Translations under genes and position numbers: made by a program
DNA from: Sulfuricaulis sp.
GTDB lineage: Bacteria; Pseudomonadota; Gammaproteobacteria; Acidiferrobacterales; Sulfurifustaceae
Direction: 5' to 3'
NCBI RefSeq assembly: GCF_024653915.1
Contig: NZ_JANLGY010000022.1
Span: 62,001 to 126,000, forward strand
Length of the DNA: 64,000 nt
Notes under the pieces: generated by a model
Databases searched by the model: none
What the model saw: only the letters and a program-made list of their open reading frames with translations
What the model was told of the DNA's origin: nothing
In this document: one piece after another, positions 28,023 to 46,150 of the stretch
Position numbering within the stretch: position 1 is the first letter of the stretch
Layout: every line of letters starts with the position of its first letter

Positions 28023-29489
28023 ATGAGCACGGCAGTGATAACAGGTCTGGTGATCGGCGGTTTGTACGGCTATATCGCCCAGCGCGGGGCATTCTGCCTC
28101 AATTCCGGTTTCCGTTTCGTCATTACCAAGCGCGATTACACCAAGGTCAAGGCCCTGGGGCTCGCGATTGCGGTACAGATGATCGCCATGCCGGCAGTGT
28201 TCGCGCTGGGGTGGGCACAACCGACCTTTCCTTCTTTTTTTCCCGTGGGCGCCATTCTGGGCGGCCTGCTCTTCGGCGTCGCCATGCATTGGGCGGCGGG
28301 TTGCGCCGCCGGGGTATGGTTCAAATCCGGCGCGGGCAACCTGGGTGCGGTGGCGGGCGTCATCGGCCTGATGCTGGGCGCCACCCTGTTCGAAGTGGGA
28401 CCGCTGAAAGGTTTGCGTGATGCCGTTCACGGCCTTGGCGCGGTATCGTTCAACGCCACGTCGCTCGGTCTGCCGCTGTGGGCACTGCTGGTCCCGCTGG
28501 GCGTGTTGCTGCTCGTATTCCTTATGCGCACAGAAACCACAAAGGCCGGCGCCTGGACCTGGCGGCGCACGGGATTGTTGTTGGGGTCGGTCGGCGTGAT
28601 GGCATGGCCGCTGTCGGCGCTGGTCGAGCGCCAGTTTGGCATGTCGGTAATCGGAGGCGCCGTGGATCTCACACGCCTCACGAGCGGCGCCTCGATTCCG
28701 GCCAAGGGTTTCGGCGGCTGGGACATTCTCTTCGTGCTCGGCCTGCCGCTCGGCGCTTACTTCGCCGCGCGCAAGGAAGGCCCCATGAAACTGTCCATCC
28801 CCAAGCCGGAGGAATTCGCCAAGATGTTCGCGGGCGGCGTTGGCCTCGGTGTCGGCGCCTCGCTCGCCGCAGGCTGCACCGTCGGCCACGGCCTCACTGG
28901 TGTCCCGCTGCTGGCGCCGGGCAGCATCGTCACGCTCGCCGCCATCTTCGTAGGCAGTGCGTTGACCGGTTATTACACCCTCGCGCAGGCGAAAAAGGTT
29001 CCACAAACCGGCAGTTCCGGGAGGCCCATCATGAGCGGAGACTGTTCCGGCCGTCCGGTTCCCGAGGGTCTGAAGAAAATGCTGTCCAGCTGCGGCGATT
29101 CGCCCGCGGTTGAACCGGCGCCGGCGGGAAACGGCGCCAAGACCATCACCATCATCATCCAGAACCCACCCTACAAGGGCGACAACAAGGCATGGCATGC
29201 GCTGCGTTTCGCGGGCGCTTCGATCGCAGAAGGCATGAACGTGCACGTGCATCTGCTGGACGACGGCGTGGAAGTCGGCAAGCGCGGCCAGAAACCGCCG
29301 GAGGGCGTGGTGAATCTGGAGGAATTATTGAAAGAACTTATGGAGTACGGACTCGAGGTCAATGCCTGCGGGCTGGCGCTCGACGGCTGCCGCATTCCGG
29401 AAGGCGAGATGATCGACGGCATCCCGCGTGGATCCATGAAGACACTCGCGAGCTGGGTGAGCAGCAGCGATCTCGTAGTGACGTTCTGA
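28023..29489 (+). CDS. YeeE/YedE (TsuA-like) transporter fused to a DsrE domain
   Basis: A 488-residue fusion. Residues about 1-325 form a polytopic YeeE/YedE module with the three conserved cysteines of the thiosulfate-channel family (RGAFC25, AAGC94, AAGC285). Known relatives (TsuA) pass thiosulfate through a cysteine relay. Residues about 375-488 form a DsrE/DsrF-like domain (TIIIQNPPYKGDNKAWHALRFA ... VNACGLALDGCRIP) with Cys449 and Cys456, joined by a Pro/Ser-rich linker. DsrE proteins accept sulfane sulfur. A transporter welded to a sulfur acceptor suggests direct hand-off of imported sulfur. It leads the cluster that ends in TusA. Topology of the DsrE domain as cytosolic is inferred. 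Confidence 0.85.
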   Translation: MSTAVITGLVIGGLYGYIAQRGAFCLNSGFRFVITKRDYTKVKALGLAIAVQMIAMPAVFALGWAQPTFPSFFPVGAILGGLLFGVAMHWAAGCAAGVWFKSGAGNLGAVAGVIGLMLGATLFEVGPLKGLRDAVHGLGAVSFNATSLGLPLWALLVPLGVLLLVFLMRTETTKAGAWTWRRTGLLLGSVGVMAWPLSALVERQFGMSVIGGAVDLTRLTSGASIPAKGFGGWDILFVLGLPLGAYFAARKEGPMKLSIPKPEEFAKMFAGGVGLGVGASLAAGCTVGHGLTGVPLLAPGSIVTLAAIFVGSALTGYYTLAQAKKVPQTGSSGRPIMSGDCSGRPVPEGLKKMLSSCGDSPAVEPAPAGNGAKTITIIIQNPPYKGDNKAWHALRFAGASIAEGMNVHVHLLDDGVEVGKRGQKPPEGVVNLEELLKELMEYGLEVNACGLALDGCRIPEGEMIDGIPRGSMKTLASWVSSSDLVVTF

Positions 29490-29506
29490 CGAAGGATATC
29501 TGAGAT

Positions 29507-29935
29507 ATGAAAAACAGAATCACGTTGTTACTGGTCACGCTGGCGATGGTGTTTGCCGTGGACCTGGCGCTGGCGGAGACGATGAAGGGGCGCATACTCG
29601 GCGAGAAGTGCGCCCAGCTCGGCAAGATCGGCGAGTGCTACCTGCAATGGGCCGATCCGATGGTCTTCTGGACGCAGGAAGGCGATTACTTCCACATCAA
29701 GCTCGCCGGCAAAAACCTTGACAAGGCTTCGCTCGACAAGCAACTCGGCCAGGAAAAAGATCCTAACACGTTCGCCGGCAAGGACCTCGACCAGCTATCG
29801 CTCGACAAGGCCTTCGGGCTGGAGGTCGAGCTGGAAGGCAAGATCCTGGACCAGGGCCAGGACAAGGGCAAGATCGAGGTGGCGAAACTGACCATCCTCA
29901 ATCCGCCCGGCAAGAAGGAATTCTTCAAGGGTTGA
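29507..29935 (+). CDS. small exported protein, unknown
   Basis: A 142-residue protein with a Sec signal peptide (about 1-23, LAMVFAVDLALA). The mature part has two cysteines near its start (EKCAQLGKIGEC), a WADPMVFWTQEGDYFHIKLAG segment, and a lysine/aspartate-rich middle with repeated LDK/LDQ-SLDK units (residues about 71-105). I do not recognise the family. It lies 17 bases after the transporter and upstream of an exported rhodanese, so a periplasmic role in the same pathway is likely. Confidence 0.7.
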   Translation: MKNRITLLLVTLAMVFAVDLALAETMKGRILGEKCAQLGKIGECYLQWADPMVFWTQEGDYFHIKLAGKNLDKASLDKQLGQEKDPNTFAGKDLDQLSLDKAFGLEVELEGKILDQGQDKGKIEVAKLTILNPPGKKEFFKG

Positions 29936-29947
29936 CTGTAAATCCGC

Positions 29948-29964
29948 GGCCCCCGGCGGGGGCC
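29948..29964. repeat. GC-rich inverted repeat after the small exported protein
   Basis: GGCCCCCGGCGGGGGCC, a 7-bp stem with a 3-base loop, 12 bases past the stop. It lacks a T-run on the plus strand (A-rich instead), so it is not a canonical terminator, but it may stabilise the upstream mRNA or reduce read-through into the rhodanese gene. Confidence 0.4.
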
Positions 29965-30056
29965 CAGGAAAAAAGGCTGCAAGAAGCAAATCGTGAATTG
30001 TAATTCGTAAATCAGACGAACTGATTGATGGCACAAACAAACGGGGGCAAGAAGTC

Positions 30057-30953
30057 ATGTATTTAATGAAACGTATGCAAACGATTTTGGCGGCGATCCT
30101 GGTGCTGTTTTTAGCGTCGCCCGCGTGGGCGGCAAAAGGCTACTCACGTCCGGAGTTGCTGATCGAGACGGATGAGCTGGTCAAAATCATGAATCAGCCC
30201 AACGTCCGCGTGGTGGACGCGGTGGACCCGGGAACCTTCCAGCGCGCGCATATTCCGGGCTCGGTAAACATTTTTTACCAGCTGCTGGCGACGCTGAAAA
30301 CGCGCAAGGAGAACGGCTATCCCGCCAGCCCGCAGGACGCCGAAAAAATATTCGGCGCGGCGGGCATCGATAACAGCACCCTGGTCGTCGTCTACGACGG
30401 CGGCGAGGGCCCGCTCGCCTCGGCCGTGTGGTTCTCTCTCGACTTTTTTGGGCACAAAAACGTGAAGGTGCTGAACGGCGGCTTCCGCAAGTGGATGAAG
30501 GAGAACCGTCCGGTAACACAGGAAGCGGTGAAGGTGGAAAAGAAGAAATTCACCGCCACGCCGCGCCCGGAACTCGTGGTGACGCTGGCGGACGTGAAAA
30601 AACGCGACCGGAAAACGGTGCTCGCGGACACGCGTTCGTTCAAGGAATTCATCGGTCAGGATCTCGTTCCAGGCGCGGCGCGCGGCGGTCACATCCCCGG
30701 TGCCGTGTTTCTGGAGTGGACCGAATTCGCCGACAGCTTGGAGACGTTCAAATCGGCGGACGATATAAAAAAGGTTCTCGAAAAGAAGGGCATCTCCAAG
30801 GACACCAAGGTGATCACCTATTGCCAGATCGGACTCGGCCGCTCCACGATGATGGCCATGGCGATGAAGCTCGCTGGCTACGACAACGTGCTCGAATACT
30901 CCGGCTCTTGGGAAGAGTGGTCCGCCGACCCGCGCCTGCCGCTGGAGAAATAG
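30057..30953 (+). CDS. exported thiosulfate sulfurtransferase (tandem rhodanese)
   Basis: A 298-residue protein with a signal peptide (about 1-26, ending SPAWA-A) and two rhodanese domains. The second carries the catalytic loop C256QIGLGRST; the first has a non-cysteine loop (YDGGEG), as in SseA/TST-type enzymes. GGHIPGAVFLEW is typical. It probably transfers sulfane sulfur in the periplasm. An ATG at 30066 is an alternative start. It stands 21 bases upstream of the TlpA-like gene, within the sulfur cluster. Confidence 0.88.
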   Translation: MYLMKRMQTILAAILVLFLASPAWAAKGYSRPELLIETDELVKIMNQPNVRVVDAVDPGTFQRAHIPGSVNIFYQLLATLKTRKENGYPASPQDAEKIFGAAGIDNSTLVVVYDGGEGPLASAVWFSLDFFGHKNVKVLNGGFRKWMKENRPVTQEAVKVEKKKFTATPRPELVVTLADVKKRDRKTVLADTRSFKEFIGQDLVPGAARGGHIPGAVFLEWTEFADSLETFKSADDIKKVLEKKGISKDTKVITYCQIGLGRSTMMAMAMKLAGYDNVLEYSGSWEEWSADPRLPLEK

Positions 30954-30974
30954 ACAGCACAGAGAGTTGATGCC

Positions 30975-31523
30975 ATGACCACCTCGACCACCAGACTCGG
31001 GCTGATCGCACTGTTCCTGTCAGCGTTCAGTGTTGCCACGGTCACCACCACGGCCGGGGAATTGCGGCAGGTGAAAAATCCGGTCCCGGCGAGCGCCTTC
31101 ATGCTGCGGAACCTGGACGGAAAACTCGTGAGCCTCCGCGACTTCGAAGACAAGGTGGTGCTGCTCAATTTCTGGGCCACGTGGTGCGCCAACTGCCGCA
31201 AGGAAATGCCGGCGATGGAACGGCTCTATCAGTCCCTGCGCACCGACGGTTTCGAGATCGTGGCCATATCCGTGGATCAGGCCTCGACCGAAAAGGTCAA
31301 GGCCTTCGCGGAAGAATTGAAACTCACCTTTCCCGTGCTGCACGACCGCGACAGCATTATCAGCAATCTCTACAGCAACCCGGGGGTACCGGTCTCGTAT
31401 CTCATCGACCGGCAGGGACGGATTACCCATCGCGTGCTGGGCGAATACGACTGGTTCTCGCCCGAGGGGCGCGACACCGTGAAGACGCTTTTGCAGGAGT
31501 CTCGCAAGAACAACGAGGGATGA
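30975..31523 (+). CDS. TlpA-like periplasmic thioredoxin
   Basis: A 182-residue thioredoxin-fold protein with an N-terminal signal or anchor (about 1-28). The redox site is WATWC71ANC74RKEMP and the cis-Pro segment is NPGVPVSYLID. This TlpA/ResA group reduces disulfides or handles heme-binding cysteines. It could supply reductant to the exported rhodanese or assist cytochrome c maturation of the fused heme subunit; both are inference. The molybdoenzyme gene begins 4 bases downstream. Confidence 0.85.
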   Translation: MTTSTTRLGLIALFLSAFSVATVTTTAGELRQVKNPVPASAFMLRNLDGKLVSLRDFEDKVVLLNFWATWCANCRKEMPAMERLYQSLRTDGFEIVAISVDQASTEKVKAFAEELKLTFPVLHDRDSIISNLYSNPGVPVSYLIDRQGRITHRVLGEYDWFSPEGRDTVKTLLQESRKNNEG

Positions 31524-31527
31524 GCGC

Positions 31528-34365
31528 ATGACCACAAGACGCGATTTTCTCAAATACTCCGGCAGCCTGTGCGCCCTGAAGCTCGGCCTGCCGCTCGATG
31601 CGCTGGCCAAGATCGTGACGGTGGACGACCCGCTCCAGGGTTATCCCAACCGCGCCTGGGAGGATTTCTACCGCCGGGAATTCGCCGCCACGCGCGGCGA
31701 TGCGCAGGGGTTCGCGTTCCACTGCTCCAACTGCCAGGGCAATTGCGCCTTTAAGATCTTTGCCAAGGACGGCATGGTGACGCGCGAGGAGCAGTTGGCG
31801 CAGTATCCGCAGATCGCCTTGGATATCCCCGACGCCAATCCACGCGGCTGCAACAAGGGCACGATTCACTCGCAGGCGATGTACGAGAAGGACCGCCTGC
31901 TGTATCCGATGAAGCGCGCAGGCAGCCGCGGCGAAGGCAAATGGACGCGCATTCCCTGGGACCAGGCCATCGCCGAAATCAGCGAAAAGACGGTGGACAC
32001 GCTCGCCCAGCACGGCCCCGGCGGCGTCATGGTCTACTGCGGCACAGGCATCCTGTCCCAGGGCCGGCGTGCGGGCCCGCTGCGGCTCGGCTCGCTACTC
32101 GGTTCCACCCGGCTCTATCCCTCGAGCGCCGTGGGCGACATGTTCACCGGTGCCACGCTGGCCTACGGCATCCCCAACGTCGGCACCTCGCTCGATGCCT
32201 GGTTCGAAATGGATTACATCGTGCTGTGGAGCTTCAACCCCAACGTTACCCGCATCCCGGACGCACATTACCTGTGGGAGGCGAAGTGGCGCGGCGCCAA
32301 GATCGTCGTGATCGCGCCGGACTACAACCCGACCGCGATCCATGCCGATCAGTGGATCTCGATCAATCCCGGCAGCGACAGTTTTCTGGCCATGTCGCTG
32401 GTGCACGTGGTGCTCAAGGAAAAACTTTATAAGGAGGCGTTCATCCGCGAGCAGACCGACCTGCCGTTCCTGGTGCGCCTCGACAACCGCAAGCTGCTGC
32501 GCGCCAGCGATCTCCTGCACGAGGCCAAGGCACCTCCCGTCAAGAAGACGGGCGAAGAAGCGAAAGAAGGGGGGCCCGAAGTTAAGGAAAACAATGATGA
32601 AATCTTTTATGTCTGGGACCGGACGACGCAGCGGGCCGTGGCCGCGCCCGGCACACGCGGCAGCAAGCGCGGTACCCTGCGCCTGGGCAAGATCGACCCG
32701 GCGCTGAAGGGCCGTTTCACGGTCAAGGACAAAAATGGCAAATCGGTCAAGGTCACGACGGTGTTCGAGCTGGTGGCGCAGGAGGCCGCAAAATTTTCAC
32801 CCGAGAAGACGCAGAAATACACCGGTATCCACCCGAGCCTCGTGCGCCAGCTGGCGCACGAGTATTCGCGGGCGCACGATCCCGGACTCACGATCGGATT
32901 TTCCCTGCACAAGTATGCCTGGGGCATCCTCACCAACTGGGCGCAGGCGCTGTTCTGCGCGCTCACCGGCCATGACGTCGTGGACACCGAGCACCAGTGG
33001 AGCCTGGGCGGGATCGGCCCGCTCTCGACCCCCAAGCCGGCGCGCTTCGAGTCAGGCTTCCTCGGGGAGTGGCTGTCCGGAAAAATGTGGGAGACATTCC
33101 ACAAGCACTACGATGACGCACGGGAATTCCAGCGCCGCGCGGGATTGAGTCCGGACGACCTGGTGAAGCTGGCCGAACGGAGTCGCGACGAGAAATGGAT
33201 GGCCAATTACGGCGAGCCGAAGGCGCGCATCCTGTTCGCGGACAACATATTCCGGCGCAACAAATCCTCGGAGCACTATAAAAAGTCTGTGCTCGACGCG
33301 ACCGAGCTCTACGTCAACGTCAACTTCCGCATGGACTCCTCGGCCGAGCTCGCCGACTACGTGTTACCGGCCATCAGCCATTACGAGGGCTGGGACATCC
33401 GCGGCGAAGTGGGTTACCACCGCTTCGTCAACCTCACCGTGCCACCGCCGGGCCTGAAGCCTGTCGGCGAGACGAAATCGGAGTGGGAAATCTGCCGGCT
33501 GTTCGCGGAGGGAATCGAAGCGGCTGCCAAAAAACGCGGCATTACCAAGCTCACCGACACGGAGTTCACGGTGAAAGTGGACGACAAGGACATGCCGGTC
33601 ACGCGCGATCTCGACACGCTGCACAAAGACTACACCATGGACGGCAAGCTCAACACCGACAAGGACGTGGTGAAGTGGCTCGTCGAGAACGTCCCGGCGT
33701 TCCAGCCGTGGAAGTTCGAGGACGCGGTGGAGCGCGGCTTTCTCATCCTCAACACCAACGCCGGGCTCACCTCGCCGTTGTACGCGAACAAACCCTACCG
33801 TTCCTTCGAGCAGCAGTTCTACCTGCGCCGGCCCTACACCACGCTTTCCGGCCGGCAGACGTTCTACATCGACCACGAGGTGTTCCTGCAGCTGGGCGCG
33901 GCCGTGCCCACGGCGCGCGAATCGCTGCACCCCGCGAAATTCCCGCTCAAGTTCTACTCGCCACACACGCGTTGGGGCATCCACTCCACGTGGCGCTCCA
34001 ACAAATACATGCTGCGGCAGCAGCGCGGCGTGCCGCACGTGAACCTCAGCCTCGCGGACGCCGCCGCGCGCGGCATCCGCGACGGCGATACCGTGCGCAT
34101 ATTCAATGACGTCGGTGAGTTCACGGCGATGGCCAAGCTGCTGCCGGGCGTGCGCCCCGGCACGCTCATGATGGATCACGCCTGGGAGCCGCATCAGTTC
34201 CGGAAGCGCGTGGGCATGGACGCGCCGGTGGCGGGTGTGCTGTCGCCCCTGGAGCTGGCCGGCGGCTGGGGGCATCTCAAGTTCGGCGCCGAGTGGGACG
34301 GCAACCAGATCGCCTACGAATCCACGGTGGACGTGGCGAAGGCGGAGGGCGGCAACCATGTCTAA
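31528..34365 (+). CDS. type II molybdopterin oxidoreductase, catalytic (alpha) subunit
   Basis: A 945-residue DMSO-reductase-family enzyme. A Tat motif (TTRRDFLKYSG) directs folded export. The FS0 cluster is bound by H65-x3-C69-x3-C73 and C108, the His-containing pattern of type II enzymes (NarG, SerA, DdhA, EbdA, ClrA). NPRGC108NKG and MYEKDRLLYPMKR follow. D204 in AVGDMFTG is in the position of the Asp that binds Mo; no Cys or Sec ligand is seen. It contains an insertion rich in K/E near residues 335-360. The substrate is unknown; neighbours suggest sulfur (or selenium) oxyanions. The beta gene overlaps by 8 bases. No TorD/NarJ-like chaperone is adjacent. Confidence 0.92.
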   Translation: MTTRRDFLKYSGSLCALKLGLPLDALAKIVTVDDPLQGYPNRAWEDFYRREFAATRGDAQGFAFHCSNCQGNCAFKIFAKDGMVTREEQLAQYPQIALDIPDANPRGCNKGTIHSQAMYEKDRLLYPMKRAGSRGEGKWTRIPWDQAIAEISEKTVDTLAQHGPGGVMVYCGTGILSQGRRAGPLRLGSLLGSTRLYPSSAVGDMFTGATLAYGIPNVGTSLDAWFEMDYIVLWSFNPNVTRIPDAHYLWEAKWRGAKIVVIAPDYNPTAIHADQWISINPGSDSFLAMSLVHVVLKEKLYKEAFIREQTDLPFLVRLDNRKLLRASDLLHEAKAPPVKKTGEEAKEGGPEVKENNDEIFYVWDRTTQRAVAAPGTRGSKRGTLRLGKIDPALKGRFTVKDKNGKSVKVTTVFELVAQEAAKFSPEKTQKYTGIHPSLVRQLAHEYSRAHDPGLTIGFSLHKYAWGILTNWAQALFCALTGHDVVDTEHQWSLGGIGPLSTPKPARFESGFLGEWLSGKMWETFHKHYDDAREFQRRAGLSPDDLVKLAERSRDEKWMANYGEPKARILFADNIFRRNKSSEHYKKSVLDATELYVNVNFRMDSSAELADYVLPAISHYEGWDIRGEVGYHRFVNLTVPPPGLKPVGETKSEWEICRLFAEGIEAAAKKRGITKLTDTEFTVKVDDKDMPVTRDLDTLHKDYTMDGKLNTDKDVVKWLVENVPAFQPWKFEDAVERGFLILNTNAGLTSPLYANKPYRSFEQQFYLRRPYTTLSGRQTFYIDHEVFLQLGAAVPTARESLHPAKFPLKFYSPHTRWGIHSTWRSNKYMLRQQRGVPHVNLSLADAAARGIRDGDTVRIFNDVGEFTAMAKLLPGVRPGTLMMDHAWEPHQFRKRVGMDAPVAGVLSPLELAGGWGHLKFGAEWDGNQIAYESTVDVAKAEGGNHV

Positions 34366-35542
34366 ACGCCAGATCGCGATGGTGATGGACCTCAACAAGT
34401 GCATCGGCTGCCAGACCTGCACCACGGCCTGCAAGACCCAGTGGACCAACCGCAACGGCCGCGAGTACATGTACTGGAACAACGTCGAAACCCATCCGGG
34501 CAACGGCTACCCGCGCAAGTGGGAGGAATCGGGCGGCGGGTTCGATGACGCCGGGAACCTCAAGCCCGGACGTATTCCGGATCTCCATCAGGACTACGGC
34601 GCGCCGTTCGAACTCAACTACGAAGAAGCCTTGGGTTGCGTAACCGTGGACAAGCATTCCGCCTGCGCCGGAAATGAGCGGCCGGAGCTGAAGCCCGTCA
34701 CGCCGCCCGTCAACGGTCCCAACTGGGACGAGGACCAGGGCGCGGGCGAACATCCCAACAGCTACTATTTTTATCTGCCGCGCATCTGCAACCATTGCAC
34801 CAACGCGGCCTGCCTCGCCGCCTGCCCGCGCCAGGCGATTTACAAGCGCGAGGAAGACGGGATCGTGCTCATCGACCAGGAGCGCTGCCGCGGCTACCAG
34901 CACTGTGTCGCCGCCTGCCCGTACAAGAAGATTTACTTCAATCCCGTCACCAACAAGTCCGAGAAGTGCATCTTCTGCTATCCGCGGATCGAACAAGGCC
35001 TGGCGACGGCCTGCGCGCAGCAGTGCGTGGGGCGCATTCGCTTCATCGGTTATCTGGATGATGTGGACGGACCGGTCCACAAGCTTGTCGAAAAATGGAA
35101 AGTGGCGTTGCCGCTGCACGCGGAGTATGGCACTCAGCCGAATGTTTATTACGTTCCGCCCCTTTCGCCTCCCAAATACGACGCGCAAGGCCGGATGACG
35201 GGCGAGCGCCGCATTCCGGATGCGTTTCTCACTGGGCTCCTGGGTCCGCGCGTGCCGGAGGTGCTGAAGCGGCTGGAGCAGGAGCGCGAGAAAAAACGCC
35301 GCGGCAAGGAATCGGAGCTGATGGACCTGCTCATCGCCTACCGTCACGAGGAGATGTTCAAGCTGGACGCGGACTACTACCGCAAACCGGGCGCGCCCCA
35401 ACCGCCCGCCGCGGCCGCGTCTCCCGGTGGCCGTTCCCGGCGCGTGATTCCAATCGTTGCCCTCAACAAAAAGGAGAGCCTGGAAGACAAGCTCGACAAT
35501 CTCGAGGTGGCGGCCGGCAATTACACGGGAGAAACGACATGA
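34358..35542 (+). CDS. type II molybdoenzyme iron-sulfur (beta) subunit
   Basis: A 394-residue four-cluster ferredoxin. The Cys groups in order are CIGCQTCTTAC (about 15-25), CNHCTNAACLAACP, CRGYQHCVAACP (Tyr/Gln where the fourth Cys would be, as for the [3Fe-4S] site of NarH/DdhB), and CIFCYPRIEQGLATACAQQC. VMDLNKCIGCQTC and YMYWNNVETHPG are shared with SerB/DdhB/EbdB. It transfers electrons from alpha to gamma. It has no Tat signal, so it should ride with alpha. Its long C-terminus (about 330-394, rich in R/E/K/P) is less conserved. ATGA overlap with the gamma gene. Confidence 0.93.
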   Translation: MSKRQIAMVMDLNKCIGCQTCTTACKTQWTNRNGREYMYWNNVETHPGNGYPRKWEESGGGFDDAGNLKPGRIPDLHQDYGAPFELNYEEALGCVTVDKHSACAGNERPELKPVTPPVNGPNWDEDQGAGEHPNSYYFYLPRICNHCTNAACLAACPRQAIYKREEDGIVLIDQERCRGYQHCVAACPYKKIYFNPVTNKSEKCIFCYPRIEQGLATACAQQCVGRIRFIGYLDDVDGPVHKLVEKWKVALPLHAEYGTQPNVYYVPPLSPPKYDAQGRMTGERRIPDAFLTGLLGPRVPEVLKRLEQEREKKRRGKESELMDLLIAYRHEEMFKLDADYYRKPGAPQPPAAAASPGGRSRRVIPIVALNKKESLEDKLDNLEVAAGNYTGETT

Positions 35543-36606
35543 CCTTCGGAGACGGCATGATCCGCCAATGGGGGCGCGTGTTGCCCGCGCTGTTGGTTGT
35601 CGCTTTCTCTTTCGCGGGCGTCGTGGCGCTGGCGGAGCGTGACGATGGCGCGATTCTCGCGAAGCAGGCTTCCGCTCCGTTGCCGCTCGATCCGGACGAT
35701 GCCTTGTGGCAGACCGCGCCGGCAACGACGGTCCGCGTCTACCCGCAGAACACGATACGTCTGCCGGGCGAGATCGCCGAGGCCGGCACCGTGACCGTGC
35801 GCGCGCTGTACAGCGCGGAAGAGCTGGCGCTGCGGCTCGAATGGTCCGATGCCTCGGTGGAGAAAACGCGCGGCGTCGGCAAGTTCGCAGACGCGGCGGC
35901 GGTGCAATGGCCGATGCAATATGGGCCCGGCGTGCGCTTGCCCTATATCGGCATGGGAAATCCGGGCGCGCCCGTGACGATGTGGCTGTGGCGCGCCGAC
36001 GGAACAACAGAGACGCTCGCCGCCGAGGGTTTTGGCACGCTCACCGTGCAAGCCTCCGACGGCATACAGGCGAAAGGCGTTTTGAAGGACGGCCGGTGGC
36101 GCGTGGTGTTCCGGCGCAAACTTGCCGCCGGCGGTGAATATTGCGTGCGCGTCGATTCTGCCAAACAGGGATTGGTGCCGGTGGCGCTGGCGTTCTGGAA
36201 CGGCGCACAGGCGGAGCGCGACGGCGCCAAGCGCCTGTCCGCCTGGCAGGTGCTGCGTTTTGAGAAGGGCGCGGCGGATGAACACTATGCGCGGCAACTT
36301 GTGTCATCGGTGACCGGCGATCCCGCCACGGGCAAACGCCTGATGATGGAAAAAGGCTGCGCCGCCTGCCACGCCTTCCCCGGCAATCCCGCGCAGCCCG
36401 CAGTGGGCCCCAGCCTCTCTTACGCCGGCGGCATCCATCACGCCGATTATCTGCTCGAATCGATCGCGGAACCTTCGAAGCTTGTCGTGCCTGGCAAGGG
36501 GTACTCGATGGTGCAGGACGGGAAAAAAGTTTCACTCATGCCGCCGTTCCAGGGAACGGAACAGGAACAGCGCGACATCGCCGCGTTTCTACAGGCGCTG
36601 CGCTGA
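35539..36606 (+). CDS. heme (gamma) subunit fused to a cytochrome c domain
   Basis: A 355-residue exported protein. After a signal (about 1-33), an ethylbenzene-dehydrogenase-like heme b domain spans about 45-242. It has DPDDALWQTAP, LRLEWSD, FADAAAVQWP, YIGMGNPGAPVTMWLWRADG and KRLSAWQVLRF. In EbdC/DdhC a Met and a Lys bind heme b; M139 and a Lys near 231 are candidates. A C-terminal cytochrome c (about 255-355) has CAACH at 274-278 and a Met-containing loop (SLMPPFQ). Families with this gamma are normally single-domain, so the fusion gives a built-in electron exit to periplasmic carriers. ATGA overlap with beta. Confidence 0.88.
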   Translation: MTFGDGMIRQWGRVLPALLVVAFSFAGVVALAERDDGAILAKQASAPLPLDPDDALWQTAPATTVRVYPQNTIRLPGEIAEAGTVTVRALYSAEELALRLEWSDASVEKTRGVGKFADAAAVQWPMQYGPGVRLPYIGMGNPGAPVTMWLWRADGTTETLAAEGFGTLTVQASDGIQAKGVLKDGRWRVVFRRKLAAGGEYCVRVDSAKQGLVPVALAFWNGAQAERDGAKRLSAWQVLRFEKGAADEHYARQLVSSVTGDPATGKRLMMEKGCAACHAFPGNPAQPAVGPSLSYAGGIHHADYLLESIAEPSKLVVPGKGYSMVQDGKKVSLMPPFQGTEQEQRDIAAFLQALR

Positions 36607-36616
36607 GTAACCGAAC

Positions 36617-37054
36617 ATGCCCGGACATGCCGTAAAACTCGGGGAAACGCAGACGCTGGATCATCTCAAGGATGCCTACCGGCGCGAGGCCCAGGCCAAC
36701 ATGCGCTATCACTTCGGCGCGCGCCTCGCGGACATGGCGCGGCGACCCGACATCGCGCAGGTGCTGCGCGCCGCCGCGGACGAGGAAAGAGGACACGCGC
36801 TCGAGTTCCTCGATCTGCTCGTCGAGCACGGCGCCGAGACGCCGGAGCTTGTCTGCGGAAAGCTCGAGGACGATCTTACGGCCGCGATCGAGGCGGAACT
36901 CCACGAGTTCACCGCGCTCTACACGCGCTACGCCGAGGTTGCGGCGCAGGAAGACTTTCCCGAAATCGCACGCTGGTTCGTGGAGCTGGCCAAGGCCGGG
37001 CGCACTCATGCCCTGTGGCTGCAACAATGCCTGGACGGACTGAAGAAGCCATGA
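36617..37054 (+). CDS. rubrerythrin / ferritin-like domain protein
   Basis: A 145-residue four-helix ferritin-like protein without a rubredoxin domain. The first diiron half-site is visible as E-A-Q-A-N-M-R-Y and DEERGH (E-x2-H). In the second half, ELHEFTALY is present, but the expected E-x2-H is replaced by AGRTH, so one Glu ligand seems missing. The site may bind one metal or have changed role. It begins 10 bases after gamma and overlaps the Mrp gene by ATGA, so it belongs to the molybdoenzyme operon. Possible roles are protection of FeS clusters from peroxide or metal delivery. Confidence 0.8.
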   Translation: MPGHAVKLGETQTLDHLKDAYRREAQANMRYHFGARLADMARRPDIAQVLRAAADEERGHALEFLDLLVEHGAETPELVCGKLEDDLTAAIEAELHEFTALYTRYAEVAAQEDFPEIARWFVELAKAGRTHALWLQQCLDGLKKP

Positions 37055-37845
37055 CCGCGCCGGAGGCGGGCCGGGCGCCCGCGCCACGGCACGTCATCGC
37101 CGTGGCGAGCGGCAAGGGCGGGGTGGGCAAGTCCACCGTCGCCGTGAACCTTGCCGCGGCACTCGCCCAAGCGGGCGCGCGTTGTGGGCTGCTCGACGCC
37201 GATTTCTACGGGCCCAGCGTCCCGCTCATGATGGGACTGCGCGACGGGCGCCTGCGCACCGGCGCAGAAGGACGCATCCGGCCGCTCGAGATCCACGGGA
37301 TCAAGATCGTCTCGATCGGCTTCATGGTTCCCGAAGGCGAGGCGCTGATGTGGCGCGGCGCCATCCTGCACAAGCTTATCCACGACTTCATCCACGACGT
37401 GGACTGGGGCGAGTGCGATTACCTGATCGTGGATCTGCCGCCCGGCACCGGCGACGTTCCTCTCTCGCTGCATCAGGCGATCCCCTTCCGCGGCGCGCTG
37501 CTCGTGACGACCCCGCAGGCGGTGGCCTTGGCCGACGCCACACGCGCCGCCGCGCTTTGCCGCGAACTCGGCATCCCCCTGCTCGGGCTCATCGAGAACA
37601 TGAGCGGGCTCGTCTGTCCGCACTGCCAGGGTCACGTGGATCTGTTTACCCCCGGCGGAGCGCAGGACCTGAGCGAACAGCTCGGCATACCGCTGCTGGG
37701 CCGCATTCCGTTCGATCCGCAGATCGGCCTGTGCGGAGACCTGGGGCTGCCGCCGGTGCTGGCGCAGCCGGATTCGCCGACGGCCACGACCTTCCGGGAA
37801 ATCGTCCTGCACCTGACGCACCAACTCTCGGTAGTTGCGGCATAA
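37051..37845 (+). CDS. Mrp/NBP35-type FeS cluster carrier ATPase
   Basis: A 264-residue P-loop ATPase with deviant Walker A SGKGGVGKST (about residues 22-31). LLDADFYGPSVPLMMG and LIVDLPPGTGDVPLSLHQ are characteristic of Mrp/ApbC/NBP35. A C-terminal CPHC motif (GLVCPHCQG) can hold a bridging [4Fe-4S] cluster. It lacks the N-terminal DUF59 domain of many Mrp proteins. The start at 37051 is fixed by ATGA overlap with the preceding gene. In context it may load the FeS clusters of the molybdoenzyme. Confidence 0.9.
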   Translation: MTAPEAGRAPAPRHVIAVASGKGGVGKSTVAVNLAAALAQAGARCGLLDADFYGPSVPLMMGLRDGRLRTGAEGRIRPLEIHGIKIVSIGFMVPEGEALMWRGAILHKLIHDFIHDVDWGECDYLIVDLPPGTGDVPLSLHQAIPFRGALLVTTPQAVALADATRAAALCRELGIPLLGLIENMSGLVCPHCQGHVDLFTPGGAQDLSEQLGIPLLGRIPFDPQIGLCGDLGLPPVLAQPDSPTATTFREIVLHLTHQLSVVAA

Positions 37846-37908
37846 CGCCGCGCGATCCGATTAAGTTCCTTAAAACACCACACTAAAACCAAGAGAGGAG
37901 AGAAAACG

Positions 37909-38139
37909 ATGACCGCTTTTAACAAAGAACTCGATGCTTCCGGCCTGCATTGCCCGATGCCCGTCTTGCGCTCCAAGAAGGCGCTGGATGGCATGGCCAG
38001 TGGCGAGGTTCTGCATATCATTTCCACTGACCCGGCCTCGAAAAACGACATCCCGTCGTTCGCCAAAACGACGAGGAACGAACTGCTCGAGGCCAAGGAG
38101 GAAGGTGAAAAGTTCCATTACTACATTCGAAAAACCTGA
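37909..38139 (+). CDS. tusA: TusA-like sulfur carrier protein
   Basis: A 76-residue TusA/SirA-fold protein. The conserved motif is LDASGLHC15PMPVLRSKKAL, with Cys15 the persulfide-bearing residue. TusA carries sulfane sulfur to thiouridylation, molybdenum cofactor maturation or dissimilatory sulfur oxidation. A strong Shine-Dalgarno (AGAGGAGAG) precedes the ATG. It closes the sulfur cluster 64 bases after mrp and lies just before selA. With DsrE domains at both ends of the region it supports a DsrE-to-TusA sulfur relay; this is inference. Confidence 0.92.
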   Translation: MTAFNKELDASGLHCPMPVLRSKKALDGMASGEVLHIISTDPASKNDIPSFAKTTRNELLEAKEEGEKFHYYIRKT

Positions 38140-38210
38140 TCTAAACCGGTGTGGCGGGAGGGAGTGTGTCGAGTCATGTCAATCCAGGGGACCTCTGCGA
38201 TAATCGACCC

Positions 38211-39596
38211 ATGCCCAAACCCTCCCCTCTTCGATCACTGCCCGCCGTCCATCAGGTTCTGGAACATCCGCTGATTGCATCGCTCAGGCCGCGCGTGGCA
38301 CACGAGTATCTCGTCGCCGAAATCCAGCACCACCTTGAAAATCACCGCGAAGCACTGCGCCAGGACGGCGGCGCGGCGCCTGATGTGAATATGCTCGCCA
38401 GCGAAGTAGCCGAGGCAGTGGGTTCCTGGTTCAACCCACGGCTGCAATCCGTCATCAATCTCACCGGCACTCTGTTGCATACCAATCTCGGACGTGCCCC
38501 GCTCTCCGAGGCCGCCGTAGCGGCCATGGCCGCTGCCGCCGGCACAGTGAATCTCGAATACGATCTCGACGCGGGCCAGCGCGGCAATCGCGACACGCTG
38601 GTGGAGGAACTGCTGTGCCGCCTGAGTGGGGCCGAGGCGGCGACCGTGGTGAACAACAATGCCGCCGCGGTGTATCTCGCGCTCAACACACTCGGCGACC
38701 GCAAGCGCGTTGTCGTCAGCCGCGGCGAGCTGGTGGAGATTGGCGACAGTTTCCGCATTCCCGATATCGTAAAGAAGAGTGGCTGCAAGCTCATGGAAAT
38801 CGGCACCACCAACCGCACGCATCTGTCGGATTACCGCCACGCGCTGGAGGAAGGCGCAGTGGTTCTGCTCAAGGTACACGCCAGCAACTACCGCGTGCAG
38901 GGATTCACCCACGAGGTATCGCTCGCGGAACTTGTCGCGCTGGGGCGCAAGCACAATGTGCCCGTCGTCACGGATCTGGGGAGCGGGGCATTCGTGGACA
39001 TGCGGCGCTGGGGGCTTGCGGGCGAGCCCACCGTGCAGGAATCCATTGCCGCGGGTGCGGATGTCGTCACCTTCAGCGGCGACAAATTGCTCGGCGGCCC
39101 GCAGGCCGGGCTGATCGTGGGGCGTGCCGAGGCGATCAAACGCATCAAGCGCAATCCGATGAAACGCGCGCTGCGCTGCGACAAACTCATCCTCGCCGCG
39201 CTCGACGCCACGCTGCGCGCCTATCTCTCGCCAGCCACGATCGAGCAATCATTACCGGCGTATGCATTGATCGGACGCAGTCTGGATGAAATCCAGAAAC
39301 TCGTGGATACCGTGCGCCCGCACGTCGAGCGCTGGGCGCAGAATCGTGCGACGGTGACGGTCGAGCCCGGACACTCGCAGATCGGCAGCGGCTCGTTGCC
39401 TGACCAGACCCTGGAAACCCGGCTCATTGCGCTCACGCCGTTGCGCGGCAGCCCCGAAGCCTTGGCGAAAGCGCTGCGCGAATTGCGCCCGCCGGTGATC
39501 GGACGCGTGCACGGCGGCAAGGTGCTGCTCGACTTGCGCGGATTGTTCGAAGTGCAACCGCTGATCGGGGCGATCGAAACGGCCACCCGGCCATGA
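38211..39596 (+). CDS. selA: L-seryl-tRNA(Sec) selenium transferase
   Basis: A 461-residue PLP enzyme that converts seryl-tRNA(Sec) to selenocysteinyl-tRNA(Sec) using selenophosphate. It shows NLTGTLLHTNLGRAPLSEAA, TVVNNNAAAVYLALN, RGELVEIGDSFRIPDI, DLGSGAF and the PLP lysine (about K292) in SGDKLLGGPQAG. The start at 38211 (MPKPSPLRSLPAVHQ) matches the family; the upstream 20 codons do not. It overlaps selB by ATGA and is the first gene of a selA-selB-selD operon. Confidence 0.97.
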   Translation: MPKPSPLRSLPAVHQVLEHPLIASLRPRVAHEYLVAEIQHHLENHREALRQDGGAAPDVNMLASEVAEAVGSWFNPRLQSVINLTGTLLHTNLGRAPLSEAAVAAMAAAAGTVNLEYDLDAGQRGNRDTLVEELLCRLSGAEAATVVNNNAAAVYLALNTLGDRKRVVVSRGELVEIGDSFRIPDIVKKSGCKLMEIGTTNRTHLSDYRHALEEGAVVLLKVHASNYRVQGFTHEVSLAELVALGRKHNVPVVTDLGSGAFVDMRRWGLAGEPTVQESIAAGADVVTFSGDKLLGGPQAGLIVGRAEAIKRIKRNPMKRALRCDKLILAALDATLRAYLSPATIEQSLPAYALIGRSLDEIQKLVDTVRPHVERWAQNRATVTVEPGHSQIGSGSLPDQTLETRLIALTPLRGSPEALAKALRELRPPVIGRVHGGKVLLDLRGLFEVQPLIGAIETATRP

Positions 39597-41494
39597 TCAT
39601 CGGCACGGCCGGACACATCGACCACGGCAAAACAGCGCTCATCCGGCGCCTGACCGGCATCGATACCGACCGGCTGCCGGAGGAAAAGCGCCGCGGCATG
39701 ACCATCGACCTTGGCTTTGCGCATCTCGATCTCGAAGGCGTGGGCCGCGTGGGCATTGTGGACGTGCCAGGCCACGAGCGCTTCGTCCACAACATGGTGG
39801 CGGGCGCAGGCGGCATGGATCTGGTGCTGCTGGTGGTCGCGGCCGACGACGGCGTAATGCCGCAAACGCGCGAACATGTCGAGATCATCGCGCTGCTCGG
39901 CATCCGCCACGCCGTGGTGGCGCTCAACAAAAGTGACCTCGTTGCATCGGATCGAATTGAGGCGGTGAGCGGAGAAATCCGTGCGCTCGCGGACGTGGCG
40001 CCGTTCCTGCACACAGCACCGATCGTCCCGGTGTCGGCGCACACCGGCGCGGGCATCGAGGCGTTGCGCCGGGAACTGACTCGGGCGCTGCGCGTCATTC
40101 CGCCGCGTGACGATCGCGGCTGGTTCCGTCTGGCGATCGACCGCGCCTTCACCCTGCCCGGCTTCGGGCTGGTGGTGACGGGCACGGTGGCCTCCGGGCA
40201 TGTGCACCGCGACGACAGCGTGCGGATTCTGCCGGGCGGACAGATCGTGCGCGTGCGCGGCCTGCAACAGCACGGCGAAGCCGTTGAGAGCGTGGCGGCG
40301 GGCAATCGCTGCGCCATGAATCTCGCGGGCGTTGAAAAAGACGCGCTCGCCCGCGGCATGGTAATCGGCGACCCGCGCCTCGAGCGCATCGCGCACACCG
40401 TGGACGTCTCCCTGCGGCTGGCGCACGGATTGAAACAGACGCCGCGCGACCGCCGGCGAGTGCGTTTCCACTGCGGCGCGGCGGAAAGGTTCGCGCGTCT
40501 GATATGGATCAGAGAAACGCCGCAAGACGGCGCGGGCCAGGCGCAACTGCGGCTGGAGCAAGGCATGCCGTTGTTGTATGGCGACCGCTTCATCCTGCGC
40601 AACGAATCGGCGGAGGTCACCGTCGGTGGCGGCGCCGTGCTCGATCCATTTGCCACCCGTCGCGCCGTCGCACGGCCCGAGCGACGCGCGCGCCTGCAAC
40701 GTCTGCAAACCGGGAATGTCGACGAGGCGTTACAGGCATGGCTCGAGGCGCGCGGCGCCGACGGCTGGCATGTGTCGGAACTGGCGGAACAACTGGCGCA
40801 AACGCCGGAGCAACTGCGCGAGCGCCTGGCGGCGCAAACCGACCTGGTGCACGAGGAAATCGGCGACGATATCTGGGTCGCGCCGTCTGCCGCCCTGGAC
40901 GCTCAGCTCGACCACCTGCACACCGCCATCATCGATTACCTGCACGCGCATCCGCGTGCCACCGCCATGCCGCCGGCAACCCTGCACGAGCAGGCCTGTC
41001 CGCGCCTCGATACGCGCGTCTTCCGCGCGCTCATCGCCCGACTGCTCGCCGCCGGGCGCGTACAGCAGACATCCGACGGCTTGTGCTTGGCGGGGCATCG
41101 ACAGCAATTCTCCGCGGCAGAAATCCTGCTGGCCGATCGCATCGAATCCACGTTGGAGTTTCGCGGCAAACCGCTGCCGAAACTCGAGGCGCTGGCGCGT
41201 GTCGTGGGCCAGCCGGCGCCGCGCCTCACCCGCTTTCTCGGCGAGCTGGAGCGCGCCGGGCGCGTGGTGAAGCTCGCGCCCGATCTTTATGTCACGCGCG
41301 GAGATGCCGAGATCTGGCGACGCCGGCTCGACGAATTGCTCGCGCAACAGGGCAGCGTAACGCTCCCCCAGTTCCGCGACGCCATCGGCGCCGGACGGGA
41401 ATTCACCGTGCATTTGCTCGATTATTTCGATCGCGCGGGCGTGACGCGCCGCCAGGGCGAAACGCGCGTCGCGGCGCAGGCGCAGCAGGCATGA
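39593..41494 (+). CDS. selB: selenocysteine-specific elongation factor
   Basis: A 633-residue GTPase that delivers Sec-tRNA(Sec) at UGA codons with a SECIS. The G1 loop is GTAGHIDHGKTALI, G3 is VDVPGHERF and G4 NKSD. EF-Tu-like domains II and III follow, then four winged-helix domains at the C-terminus (about 370-633) that bind the SECIS RNA, including the basic final helix. It overlaps both selA and selD by ATGA. Confidence 0.97.
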   Translation: MIIGTAGHIDHGKTALIRRLTGIDTDRLPEEKRRGMTIDLGFAHLDLEGVGRVGIVDVPGHERFVHNMVAGAGGMDLVLLVVAADDGVMPQTREHVEIIALLGIRHAVVALNKSDLVASDRIEAVSGEIRALADVAPFLHTAPIVPVSAHTGAGIEALRRELTRALRVIPPRDDRGWFRLAIDRAFTLPGFGLVVTGTVASGHVHRDDSVRILPGGQIVRVRGLQQHGEAVESVAAGNRCAMNLAGVEKDALARGMVIGDPRLERIAHTVDVSLRLAHGLKQTPRDRRRVRFHCGAAERFARLIWIRETPQDGAGQAQLRLEQGMPLLYGDRFILRNESAEVTVGGGAVLDPFATRRAVARPERRARLQRLQTGNVDEALQAWLEARGADGWHVSELAEQLAQTPEQLRERLAAQTDLVHEEIGDDIWVAPSAALDAQLDHLHTAIIDYLHAHPRATAMPPATLHEQACPRLDTRVFRALIARLLAAGRVQQTSDGLCLAGHRQQFSAAEILLADRIESTLEFRGKPLPKLEALARVVGQPAPRLTRFLGELERAGRVVKLAPDLYVTRGDAEIWRRRLDELLAQQGSVTLPQFRDAIGAGREFTVHLLDYFDRAGVTRRQGETRVAAQAQQA

Positions 41495-42537
41495 CCGTGC
41501 CGGAAAAAATCCGTCTGACCCAATGGGCGAGCTGCGCCGGTTGCGCGGCGAAAATGGACGCCGGCCGGCTGGCCGATGTTCTCGCGCGACTTCCGCGCAG
41601 CACCGACCCCGATCTTCTGGTCGGTCCGGAAACCTCGGACGACGCGGGCGTGTATCGCATCGCGGACAATCTCGCGCTGCTCAACACCGTGGATTTCTTC
41701 CCGCCCATCGTGGACGATCCCTACACCTACGGGCAGATCGCTGCTGCCAATGCCCTTTCCGACATCTACGCCATGGGCGGTCGGCCGGTGACCGCGCTCA
41801 ATCTGGTGGCCTTCCCACGCAATGGTCTGCCGCTATCGGTGTTACACGATATACTGCGTGGCGGATCTGACAAGCTCGCAGAAGCCGGTGTCGCACTCGT
41901 GGGCGGGCACACGGTGGCCGATCAGGAAGTGAAATACGGCATGGCCATTACCGGCCTGATCGATCCCGCGCGTCTCATCCGCAATGGCGGCGCACAACCG
42001 GGCGATCGCCTGATTCTCGCCAAACCCATCGGGGTCGGGATTATCACCACCGCGCTCAAACAGGAGTGCGCCGAGGCAGCGCTCGTGGAACGCGCGGCCA
42101 CCGTGATGCGCCGGCTCAACCGCGCGGAGGCGGAGGCGATGTTGCTGCACGACGTGCACGCCTGCACCGACATCACCGGCTACGGGTTGCTCGGACATGC
42201 ACTCGAAATGGCGCGCGCCAGTGGCGTGCGTCTTCGCATCGAACACCAGAAAGTGCCGCACTTCCCGGAGGCACTGGATCTGTGCGCGCGTGGTATCCGG
42301 CCGAGCGGACTCGCAAGCAATCGCCAGGCGTTTTCCGAAAGCGTCCGGTTCGACGACGCGGTGCCCGAGGTGTGGCGTGAGTTACTGTTCGATCCCCAGA
42401 CCTCGGGCGGGCTGTTGATCGCACTGCCCGAAGCGGATGCGCCACGCCTGCTGTTTCGCCTGTGTGAAAACGACATTGAGGCGTTCACCATCGGTCACGT
42501 CACGGAACGCGGCAGGGGTGAGATATTGGTTGTCTAA
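41491..42537 (+). CDS. selD: selenide, water dikinase (selenophosphate synthase)
   Basis: A 348-residue enzyme that makes selenophosphate from selenide and ATP. The catalytic segment is LTQWASCAGCAAKMDAG; Cys in the GC position aligns with the active Cys/Sec of SelD, and K follows three residues later, so this is the Cys form. The usual GCGCK is GCAAK here. DDAGVY, NTVDFFPPIVDDPY, GGHTVADQEVKYG and ITGYGLLGHALEMA follow. The start at 41491 overlaps selB by ATGA. It is followed 11 bases later by tRNA-Sec. Confidence 0.96.
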   Translation: MTVPEKIRLTQWASCAGCAAKMDAGRLADVLARLPRSTDPDLLVGPETSDDAGVYRIADNLALLNTVDFFPPIVDDPYTYGQIAAANALSDIYAMGGRPVTALNLVAFPRNGLPLSVLHDILRGGSDKLAEAGVALVGGHTVADQEVKYGMAITGLIDPARLIRNGGAQPGDRLILAKPIGVGIITTALKQECAEAALVERAATVMRRLNRAEAEAMLLHDVHACTDITGYGLLGHALEMARASGVRLRIEHQKVPHFPEALDLCARGIRPSGLASNRQAFSESVRFDDAVPEVWRELLFDPQTSGGLLIALPEADAPRLLFRLCENDIEAFTIGHVTERGRGEILVV

Positions 42538-42548
42538 AAATTGTGCAC

Positions 42549-42644
42549 GGAGAGGATGATGGCCCGGTGGCATCCTCGGACTTCAAATCCGATGAGAGGC
42601 AGCAAACCTGTCTCTGGTGGGTTCGACTCCTACCCTCTCCGCCA
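42549..42644 (+). tRNA. selC: tRNA-Sec (anticodon UCA)
   Basis: A 96-base tRNA with acceptor arms GGAGAGG/CCTCTCC, an anticodon loop CTTCAAA containing TCA, a long variable arm (GAGAGGCAGCAAACCTGTCTC), a GGTTCGACTCC T-arm and an encoded CCA end. The long extra arm and UCA anticodon identify a selenocysteine tRNA. It sits directly after selD, so all Sec machinery genes form one locus. Confidence 0.97.
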
Positions 42645-42698
42645 TTTTTAGACTTAACGGCATATGTTGATTGAACAGGCTATGGAGGTGTCACTGAC

Positions 42699-45432: not shown

Positions 45433-45468
45433 CAGCTCTCTCCTTCGATCTTCACGGGATTTCCCTTC

Positions 45469-45739: not shown

Positions 45740-46150
45740 CTAAAAGGTCAGATTCATGTCAGCCGGGATGACAACTTCCTTGTAGTACTTTGCCGGGTCG
45801 GCCACCTTGACGCCGTCCACGAGGTCGCGCTCCGCCATTCCGAAGACCGAGAGATTGAGCGGACAGGCCAGCACGGTGGCGCCTTCCGCGATCAGCATGA
45901 CGAACATGTCCTCGAGGAGTGGCAGGTCCAATTCGTCCATCCTTTTCATAATCATCTGGCCGACCTCGGGTGGCGCGTCCGGCAGGCAGGTGAGCGCCAT
46001 GTACTTCTCGCGGTGCACGGCATTGATGCCGCGCGAGCCGAAGAACAGCGTCACCTTCGCGCCTTCTCGCAAGAGGCTCAGCGCCGTCATCAGGGCGTTA
46101 AACACCAGGCACAGCTCGTCGTGGAAACACATCACGGATACTTTTTTCAT
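45740..46150 (-). CDS. DsrE/DsrF-like family protein
   Basis: A 136-residue cytosolic protein of the DsrE fold, starting KKVSVMCFHDELCLVFNALMTALSLLREGAKVTLFFG. A candidate active Cys lies in MLIAEGATVLACPLNLS (about residue 97), in the position used by DsrE-like sulfur acceptors. The N-terminal Cys pair may also be involved. Overlap with the preceding amidotransferase is ATGA. It is likely to receive or relay sulfur from the SQR-like enzyme. Confidence 0.82.
   Translation of the reverse strand: MKKVSVMCFHDELCLVFNALMTALSLLREGAKVTLFFGSRGINAVHREKYMALTCLPDAPPEVGQMIMKRMDELDLPLLEDMFVMLIAEGATVLACPLNLSVFGMAERDLVDGVKVADPAKYYKEVVIPADMNLTF

Follow-up and report, generated by a model that had tools for sequence, protein, structure and literature searches.

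Type II molybdoenzymes differ widely in substrate (PMC10100899, partial text), and the catalytic subunits of the two described systems closest to the one considered here, SerA and ClrA, are 83.6% identical to each other (PMC12724226, a 2025 paper, partial text). Lin et al. 2015 suggested that the YeeE/YedE transporters are linked to selenium (PMC5322559, partial text); predicted members of this family containing selenocysteine (Sec) are already listed in reviews of 2026 (PMC13188914, motif GUxSG) and 2022 (PMC9312934; both partial text), hence this kind of permease is not new. Here we describe an operon in a 64,000-nucleotide (nt) stretch of the Sulfuricaulis sp. contig NZ_JANLGY010000022.1 (the window; all coordinates are window positions), in which the genes of a type II molybdoenzyme and of a putative chalcogen relay are followed by a complete set of Sec-decoding genes, SelA, SelB, SelD and tRNA-Sec. 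We tentatively propose, at somewhat less than an even chance, that this operon encodes a periplasmic reductase acting on chalcogen oxyanions, with selenium as the most likely chalcogen, together with an import relay of its own. In the literature consulted, mostly open-access and represented by titles and the starts of abstracts, we recognised no description of an operon that unites a type II molybdoenzyme with Sec genes.

Operon structure

From the YedE-DsrE gene to tRNA-Sec all genes lie on the plus strand, with intergenic gaps of -8 to 121 nt. The first gene encodes a YeeE/YedE-type permease fused to a DsrE domain (28023..29489; Pfam PF04143 and PF02635, Sulf_transp + DsrE). It is followed by the genes for a small exported protein of no known family (29507..29935), an exported two-domain rhodanese (30057..30953; two stretches matching PF00581) and a TlpA/ResA-like exported thioredoxin-fold protein with a CxxC motif (30975..31523; PF00578, the ResA/TlpA models staying below cut-off). 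The alpha subunit of the molybdoenzyme (31528..34365) was assigned by the Pfam Molybdopterin and dinucleotide-binding domains, by its residues and by the tree; the gaps between the rhodanese and TlpA genes and between the TlpA and alpha genes are 21 nt and 4 nt, respectively. The beta subunit is a multi-cluster Fe-S protein (34358..35542; TIGR03478, 533.7 bits, above the cut-off of 480.7), and the gamma subunit combines an EB_dh domain of the heme b type with a C-terminal cytochrome c (35539..36606; PF09459 and PF00034, CxxCH at residue 274). Then come a rubrerythrin/ferritin-like protein (Rbr, 36617..37054; PF02915), an Mrp/NUBPL-type P-loop ATPase, an Fe-S carrier (37051..37845; PF10609), and TusA (37909..38139; PF01206, 90.5 bits).

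The operon continues past TusA with the genes for SelA (38211..39596, the start being set at ATG 38211; PF03841, 505.5 bits), SelB (39593..41494; SelB wing domains) and the Cys form of SelD (41491..42537; TIGR00476, 392.8 bits, cut-off 125), and with tRNA-Sec with the anticodon TCA (42549..42644; ARAGORN; Rfam RF01852, 64.8 bits). From TusA onwards, these four genes either overlap by 4 nt or are 11-71 nt apart (71 nt counted from ATG 38211), and a second YeeE/YedE gene lies beyond them. An Rfam search of positions 27000-47000 yielded nothing useful besides tRNA-Sec, and the assembly was found to contain no 16S rRNA gene. By Pfam, every gene named in the preliminary description is present, on the plus strand and in its place, while the gene for the small exported protein, the whole set from SelA to tRNA-Sec and the second YeeE/YedE gene had been missed there.

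The small exported protein has no Pfam or NCBIfam match. Across 12 sequences it has 13 invariant columns, Cys 35 and Cys 44 being invariant. Its AlphaFold model has a predicted local distance difference test (pLDDT) score of 77.6, and a fold search with it gave no confident match in the PDB (best E 0.053).

The alpha subunit forms a separate clade

The alpha subunit starts with a twin-arginine (RR) signal of the Tat type, carries the Fe-S ligands HxxxCxxxC...C and an Asp ligand, aligns over its full length with type II enzymes and groups with them. The residues previously picked out from the sequence, H65, C69, C73, C108 and D204, proved correct and align with the matching residues of other type II rows. 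Against the type II model TIGR03479 (DMSO reductase alpha) the protein scores 972.8 bits, under the cut-off of 984.75, and the gamma subunit likewise scores 150.4 bits against its NCBIfam type II model, under the cut-off of 169.85. Cys66, beside the His ligand, is shared by L054 and each of the seven alpha-clade rows compared, and occurs in none of the four Clr rows.

In a tree of 48 alphas, which covers Clr, Pcr-type, Ebd-like and Nar sequences and contains neither SerA nor DdhA, the alphas of the main group (n = 13) and those of the L018 type (n = 5) share one branch with support 100/100. The main group itself has support 100/99 and is adjoined by the long branch of L054. The sister of the alpha branch, again at 100/100, is the Clr/Ser group, which is closed at 100/100 without alpha, whereas the Pcr-type rows (including L082, with 1751 bits against the PcrA structure), the Ebd-like and the Nar rows are placed elsewhere. 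The window alpha is 39% identical to ClrA and 33-35% identical to the Ebd-like rows, which form a separate branch. Since SerA is 83.6% identical to ClrA and alpha only 39%, SerA belongs with the Clr group. Thus, as the preliminary description had anticipated, alpha falls outside the characterised clades tested (Clr, Pcr, Ebd-like, Nar), and it is well supported as a clade of its own, next to the selenate and chlorate reductases and apparently uncharacterised.

Conservation of the gene cluster

One scan of GTDB contigs yielded 18 named alpha loci with 56-79% identity, from Pseudomonadota, Nitrospirota, Nitrospinota and one contig labelled Planctomycetota. The latter (L015, JADYYE010000172.1) is a Phycisphaerales-labelled contig of 3.3 kb whose alpha is almost the same as that of a Sulfuritalea metagenome-assembled genome (MAG; L012), probably due to a binning error. 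The conserved core of these loci comprises the small exported protein, the two-domain rhodanese, TlpA, alpha, beta and gamma. Where the respective place is visible, the rhodanese precedes alpha in 17/17 loci, the small exported protein is present in 15/15 (14 by tblastn, L018 by clustering), beta in 14/14 and gamma in 12/13, other main-group loci having full-length gamma matches; TlpA is in the cluster in 17/18. So far as the neighbours had been expected to be conserved with alpha, the expectation was borne out for these five genes in Pseudomonadota, Nitrospirota and Nitrospinota, and it failed for the YedE-DsrE fusion, which has no match at the head of any other locus; Rbr and Mrp recur in only two of the ten named loci whose sequence extends past gamma, namely L016 and L008 (MAG FW104_bin.7, an alpha-bearing relative from the same GTDB family as the window).

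Several further families accompany alpha. Homologs (54-68%) of a flavoprotein resembling SQR and FCSD lie near alpha in L007, L008, L016 and L021, and in L008 and L009 a DsrE2-like homolog separates SelA from Mrp or gamma. An ArsR-rhodanese fusion family recurs both in alpha clusters and at Clr/Ser-type loci. A further family (F2, 16 genes, for example L008 4331-4780) recurs next to alpha clusters; its members are roughly 150 residues long, begin with a signal-like segment and match neither Pfam nor NCBIfam. None was seen in window positions 26000-55000.

A lineage of Sec-decoding genes linked to the cluster

In the window and in L008, L009, L010 and L016, the cluster includes tRNA-Sec, which follows SelB within about 1.6 kb; in L016 only SelB, and not SelA, adjoins the cluster. 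The SelA proteins of the window, L008, L009 and L010 are 64-69% identical to each other and 49-57% identical to other SelA, a range that leaves out L125 (41-45%) and L061 of genome G008, which is of the same lineage. For the window SelA taken separately, identity is 66-69% to L008-L010, 82% to G008 and 41-53% to other SelA. The five cluster SelB proteins show 54-64% mutual identity and 36-43% identity to the full-length others (the truncated rows L059-L061 left out), the window SelB having 54-60% and 39-41%, respectively. By sequence comparison, the SelA and SelB of the cluster are a separate lineage linked to the alpha cluster. In genome G431 the cluster contains the cluster-lineage SelB together with tRNA-Sec, and another SelA-SelB-tRNA-Sec set, which differs from it, is found elsewhere (L124).

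Of 19 distinct alpha genomes, 13 have a SelA that scores above the cut-off (21 were examined, of which G015 repeats G423 and G175 holds only the 48% homolog). In a set of relatives (n = 60), SelA was found in both genomes with alpha (G000, G015) and in 2 of the 58 without it. In the four alpha genomes outside the cluster lineage for which the surroundings of SelA were inspected (G426, G427, G432 and G436), SelA is of the other lineage and does not adjoin alpha, hence Sec use there need not concern alpha.

Related clusters encode a permease with an in-frame UGA

Between the rhodanese and TlpA, 7 of the 17 named loci with this interval visible (L007, L008, L010, L016, L017, L020, L022) have a YeeE-type permease and a membrane-anchored rhodanese. 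All seven permeases contain an in-frame TGA at one and the same place, GGF-U-PGTC, and the reading frame is open before and after it (in L017 it breaks further on, and L007 contains some N). A genome scan with PF04143 flagged the same single TGA in G431, G015 and G425. The Sec column is occupied by Cys in the aligned YedE-DsrE of the window and in a 38% homolog in G015. Among the seven host genomes, SelA was found in four and SelB in a fifth (L022); no SelA was found in G422 and G435, where SelB was not sought. L009 has the Sec genes and no permease between the rhodanese and TlpA. Judged by sequence, the motif FUPGTC and the genomic setting look different from those of the Sec YeeE/YedE proteins already listed.

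The bases following the UGA can pair as a GCGGCC/GGCCGC hairpin. The share of identical synonymous codons is 0.75 in codons 4-12 after the UGA versus 0.51-0.56 in later bins, and it is equally high, 0.76, in codons -15 to -5.

Other candidate Sec residues were rejected. No internal stop was present among the PF00384 matches (molybdoenzymes) of the window's genome, the PF00581 matches (rhodaneses) of five genomes or the PF00578 matches (peroxiredoxin and TlpA-type proteins) of six genomes. Where tblastn matches of cluster proteins contained stops, these were at the ends of genes or in stretches that are not conserved. The flags of one TGA in Clr/Ser-type alpha genes were normal stop codons with the alignment running past them, and a PF04143 match with several stops in the window's genome coincides with an intact gene read in a different frame. 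Scanning the loci for TGA in all frames gave mostly antisense noise among the matches listed; the permease emerged from the PF04143 genome scan instead.

Co-occurrence with Ser/Clr-type operons

The co-occurrence of alpha with Ser/Clr-type operons was assessed in 395 Rhodocyclaceae from a larger group (E<=1e-90). As a rule two candidates were scored per genome, thus the counts are lower bounds. Alpha was found in at least 9 genomes (two by partial genes), a Ser/Clr-type alpha in at least 9, and both in at least 5. In G428 and G433 the two lie on one contig, 16-23 kb apart. Both kinds of loci have DsrE, glutamine amidotransferase (GATase), TlpA, gamma-lyase-like, NifS-like, methyltransferase and ArsR-rhodanese families in common, and among the four Ser/Clr loci from genomes without alpha some of the shared families are seen in L113 and L114.

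Chlorate respiration requires chlorite dismutase. The latter was present in seven of eight perchlorate-type genomes (six of the eight placed by the tree), was not found in eight of nine Ser/Clr-type genomes, whose completeness is not known, and was present in 1 of 12 alpha genomes tested. Since it is mostly not found, most of the Ser/Clr-type operons are more likely of the Ser kind, and most of those in Rhodocyclaceae are probably selenate reductases.

Ser/Clr-type operons in Rhodocyclaceae (L104, L106-L107, L116, L118, L119; partly L115, L117) lie in an island that also encodes an Alginate_exp-type porin, heme proteins, among them one like cytochrome c554, and a molybdoenzyme resembling TtrA (372 bits, cut-off 1750); in some islands a MoaA-like gene was recognised by eye. 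The island is perhaps one for selenate respiration.

Neighbouring genes and other observations

Downstream of tRNA-Sec, the second YeeE/YedE-type permease gene (42699..44084, plus strand; PF04143, 78.6 bits) has a GC content of 0.537, compared with 0.54-0.68 elsewhere in the window, and a codon-usage score that is low for its length (30.4). It is perhaps a late arrival beside tRNA-Sec. On the minus strand there follow the SQR/FCSD-like flavoprotein (44278..45432; closest to the model 'type III sulfide quinone reductase, selenoprotein subtype', below cut-off), a DsrE2-like protein (45740..46150; PF13686) and two recurrent neighbours, a class II glutamine amidotransferase-like protein (46147..46995; PF13230) and a VTT membrane domain fused to a rhodanese (47106..48146; PF09335 + PF00581). 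An ArsR/SmtB-type regulator fused to a rhodanese (family F1, 20 genes) is encoded on the plus strand (49135..49809; PF01022 + PF00581). A SoxH-related gene is also situated near the cluster; like the SQR-like one, it is below the model cut-off.

At 52724-53785 the window has an ArsM-like methyltransferase, whose closest models include selenoprotein fusions, all below cut-off; in G008, the piece of contig that carries the Sec genes terminates within an 85% homolog of it (81 residues visible). Outside the window, contig C11 of genome G000 (L068, L002) encodes an NxrA-like protein (801.6 bits to the nitrite oxidoreductase subunit A structure 7b04) and, within a few kb of it, another type II alpha, 55% identical to L056 and 47% to a PcrA-type row.

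Possible function of the operon

The proposed function draws on the computed gene content, alpha clade, conserved core, permease UGA, cluster-linked Sec-decoding lineage and Ser/Clr co-occurrence; from these we infer the substrate, the direction and every transfer step. Electrons would pass from a periplasmic cytochrome c via the heme of gamma and the Fe-S clusters of beta to the molybdenum-bis(molybdopterin guanine dinucleotide) cofactor of alpha with its Asp ligand. There an oxidised chalcogen would be reduced by alpha; the likeliest candidate is an oxyanion of selenium, namely selenate, with the reduction perhaps going further. The product, a reduced or zero-valent chalcogen, could be carried as a per-sulfide or per-selenide on TlpA and the exported rhodanese and cross the membrane via a YeeE/YedE permease, the relay residue presumably being Sec in the seven related clusters and Cys in the YedE-DsrE of the window. 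DsrE and TusA would receive the imported chalcogen, which might then feed SelD, SelA and tRNA-Sec of the same operon. A stricter version, in which alpha reduces an environmental selenium oxyanion, the relay delivers to the selenoprotein permease and the operon's own Sec set spends the selenium, partly on more permease, would make this a self-contained selenium-acquisition operon; we regard it as unlikely in full. The preliminary description had read the genes as a sulfur relay around an enzyme acting on a sulfur (or selenium) compound. The relay genes stand, but neither the downstream Sec genes nor the permease that is a selenoprotein in related clusters had been taken into account; as the Sec genes are found directly downstream, the reading shifts from sulfur towards selenium, which is the better supported of the two substrates without being shown.

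Several observations weigh against a selenium oxyanion reductase. Fourteen of the 18 named loci have no adjacent cluster-lineage Sec genes (several are cut by contig ends), a Sec permease is absent from the window's own cluster, and searching the window's genome with PF00384, PF00581, PF00578 and PF04143 revealed no Sec residue in these four families. In the related clusters, hairpins after the UGA are no better than shuffles (folding energy z from +0.7 to -1.7). Genome G008 (same genus, 79% complete) carries the cluster Sec lineage together with SQR-like, DsrE2 and ArsR-rhodanese genes, and no alpha was found in that 79% complete assembly; in the 1.5 kb from DsrE2 to its contig end a small rhodanese is encoded, but Mrp, Rbr and gamma are all missing, which slightly lowers our confidence in the proposal. 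The need to make a selenoprotein permease could be the sole reason for the Sec genes, which would then be silent on the cargo. The association of alpha with SelA (13/19 vs 2/58, Fisher 1.3e-8) comes from mixed taxa, and neither it nor the association with Ser/Clr-type alphas (at least 5 of 9 alpha genomes vs at least 4 of 386 others, Fisher 2e-7) is corrected for kinship. Of the four Ser/Clr loci from genomes without alpha, two (L115, L116) lack all of the companion families shared by the two kinds of loci.

The selenium reading has a strong rival in a sulfur substrate. In this case alpha would oxidise or reduce a periplasmic sulfur compound, the relay would import sulfane sulfur for oxidation or signalling, and the Sec genes would serve only the Sec-containing permease or another selenoprotein; we consider this doubtful, yet a real possibility. 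Several hosts bear the names of sulfur oxidisers, including the MAGs Sulfuricella, Sulfuritalea and Sulfurimicrobium, which we take to be such. The SQR-like and SoxH-related genes nearby (both under model cut-offs) point the same way, a Sec permease by itself would account for the Sec genes, and the companions fit the scheme of SoxT, TusA, DsrE and an ArsR-type regulator (PMC11582611, partial text). However, in the tree without DdhA, alpha is sister to Clr/Ser and not to a known sulfur enzyme, it co-occurs with Ser/Clr-type operons in genomes mostly without detected chlorite dismutase, and Sec genes are also present where the permease has Cys (the window) or is missing between the rhodanese and TlpA (L009). 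Quite unlikely, in our opinion, is that alpha, beta and gamma act on some other substrate (nitrite, dimethyl sulfide or another organic compound), the relay and Sec genes being separate functions linked to them by transfer. The wide substrate range of type II enzymes would allow it, and so would the loci lacking adjacent Sec genes and the presence of the Sec part without detected alpha in G008; against it stand the rhodanese and TlpA that keep their company with alpha across Pseudomonadota, Nitrospirota and Nitrospinota, and the short rhodanese-TlpA-alpha gaps in the window. That alpha is a Clr/Pcr-like reductase of chlorate or perchlorate, as its identity to ClrA might suggest, is nearly refuted and very improbable: alpha is outside both clades, the ClrD of ClrABDC has no homolog in the alpha clusters mapped, and chlorite dismutase is rare in the alpha genomes tested and common in perchlorate-type ones. 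In particular, PcrA membership is contradicted by the position of alpha outside the PcrA clade, and no chlorite dismutase was found in the window's genome.

If the stricter version is true, the operon would represent a dedicated selenium uptake route. Specific selenium uptake by bacteria is an open question, for which the cluster supplies named genes for testing, and annotations as a 'sulfur relay' may hide selenium traffic. A well-supported clade beside the selenate and chlorate reductases extends over several phyla, with many loci coming from groundwater and sulfur-bacteria MAGs, and a type II enzyme is tied by operon to the Sec machinery and, in relatives, to a Sec-containing permease.

Comparison with known systems

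The nearest sister clade of alpha is that of SerABDC (Thauera selenatis) and ClrABDC (Ideonella dechloratans), which likewise have a Tat-exported type II alpha with an Asp ligand, an Fe-S beta and a heme gamma. Unlike them, the window has a gamma fused to cytochrome c, and the alpha cluster carries the rhodanese and TlpA and, at some loci, the permease and Sec genes, whereas homologs of the chaperone ClrD occur only at the Clr/Ser-type loci among those mapped. With the YeeE/YedE transporters (TsuA, SoxT and the selenium-linked YedE) the cluster shares a PF04143 permease near TusA/DsrE-type carriers; in contrast, where related loci have the permease in the cluster, it bears Sec at the conserved Cys position, in the motif FUPGTC. 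The SoxT1A/SoxT1B modules similarly combine a permease with a periplasmic thiol-disulfide protein, TusA/DsrE and a repressor (PMC11582611, partial text), while the alpha cluster additionally includes the type II molybdoenzyme and, at five loci, tRNA-Sec and SelB. Finally, like bacterial selA-selB-selD-selC clusters, the window has the complete set in one operon with tRNA-Sec, but here the Sec-decoding genes belong to a separate sequence lineage tied to the alpha cluster, which in G431 exists beside a second set.

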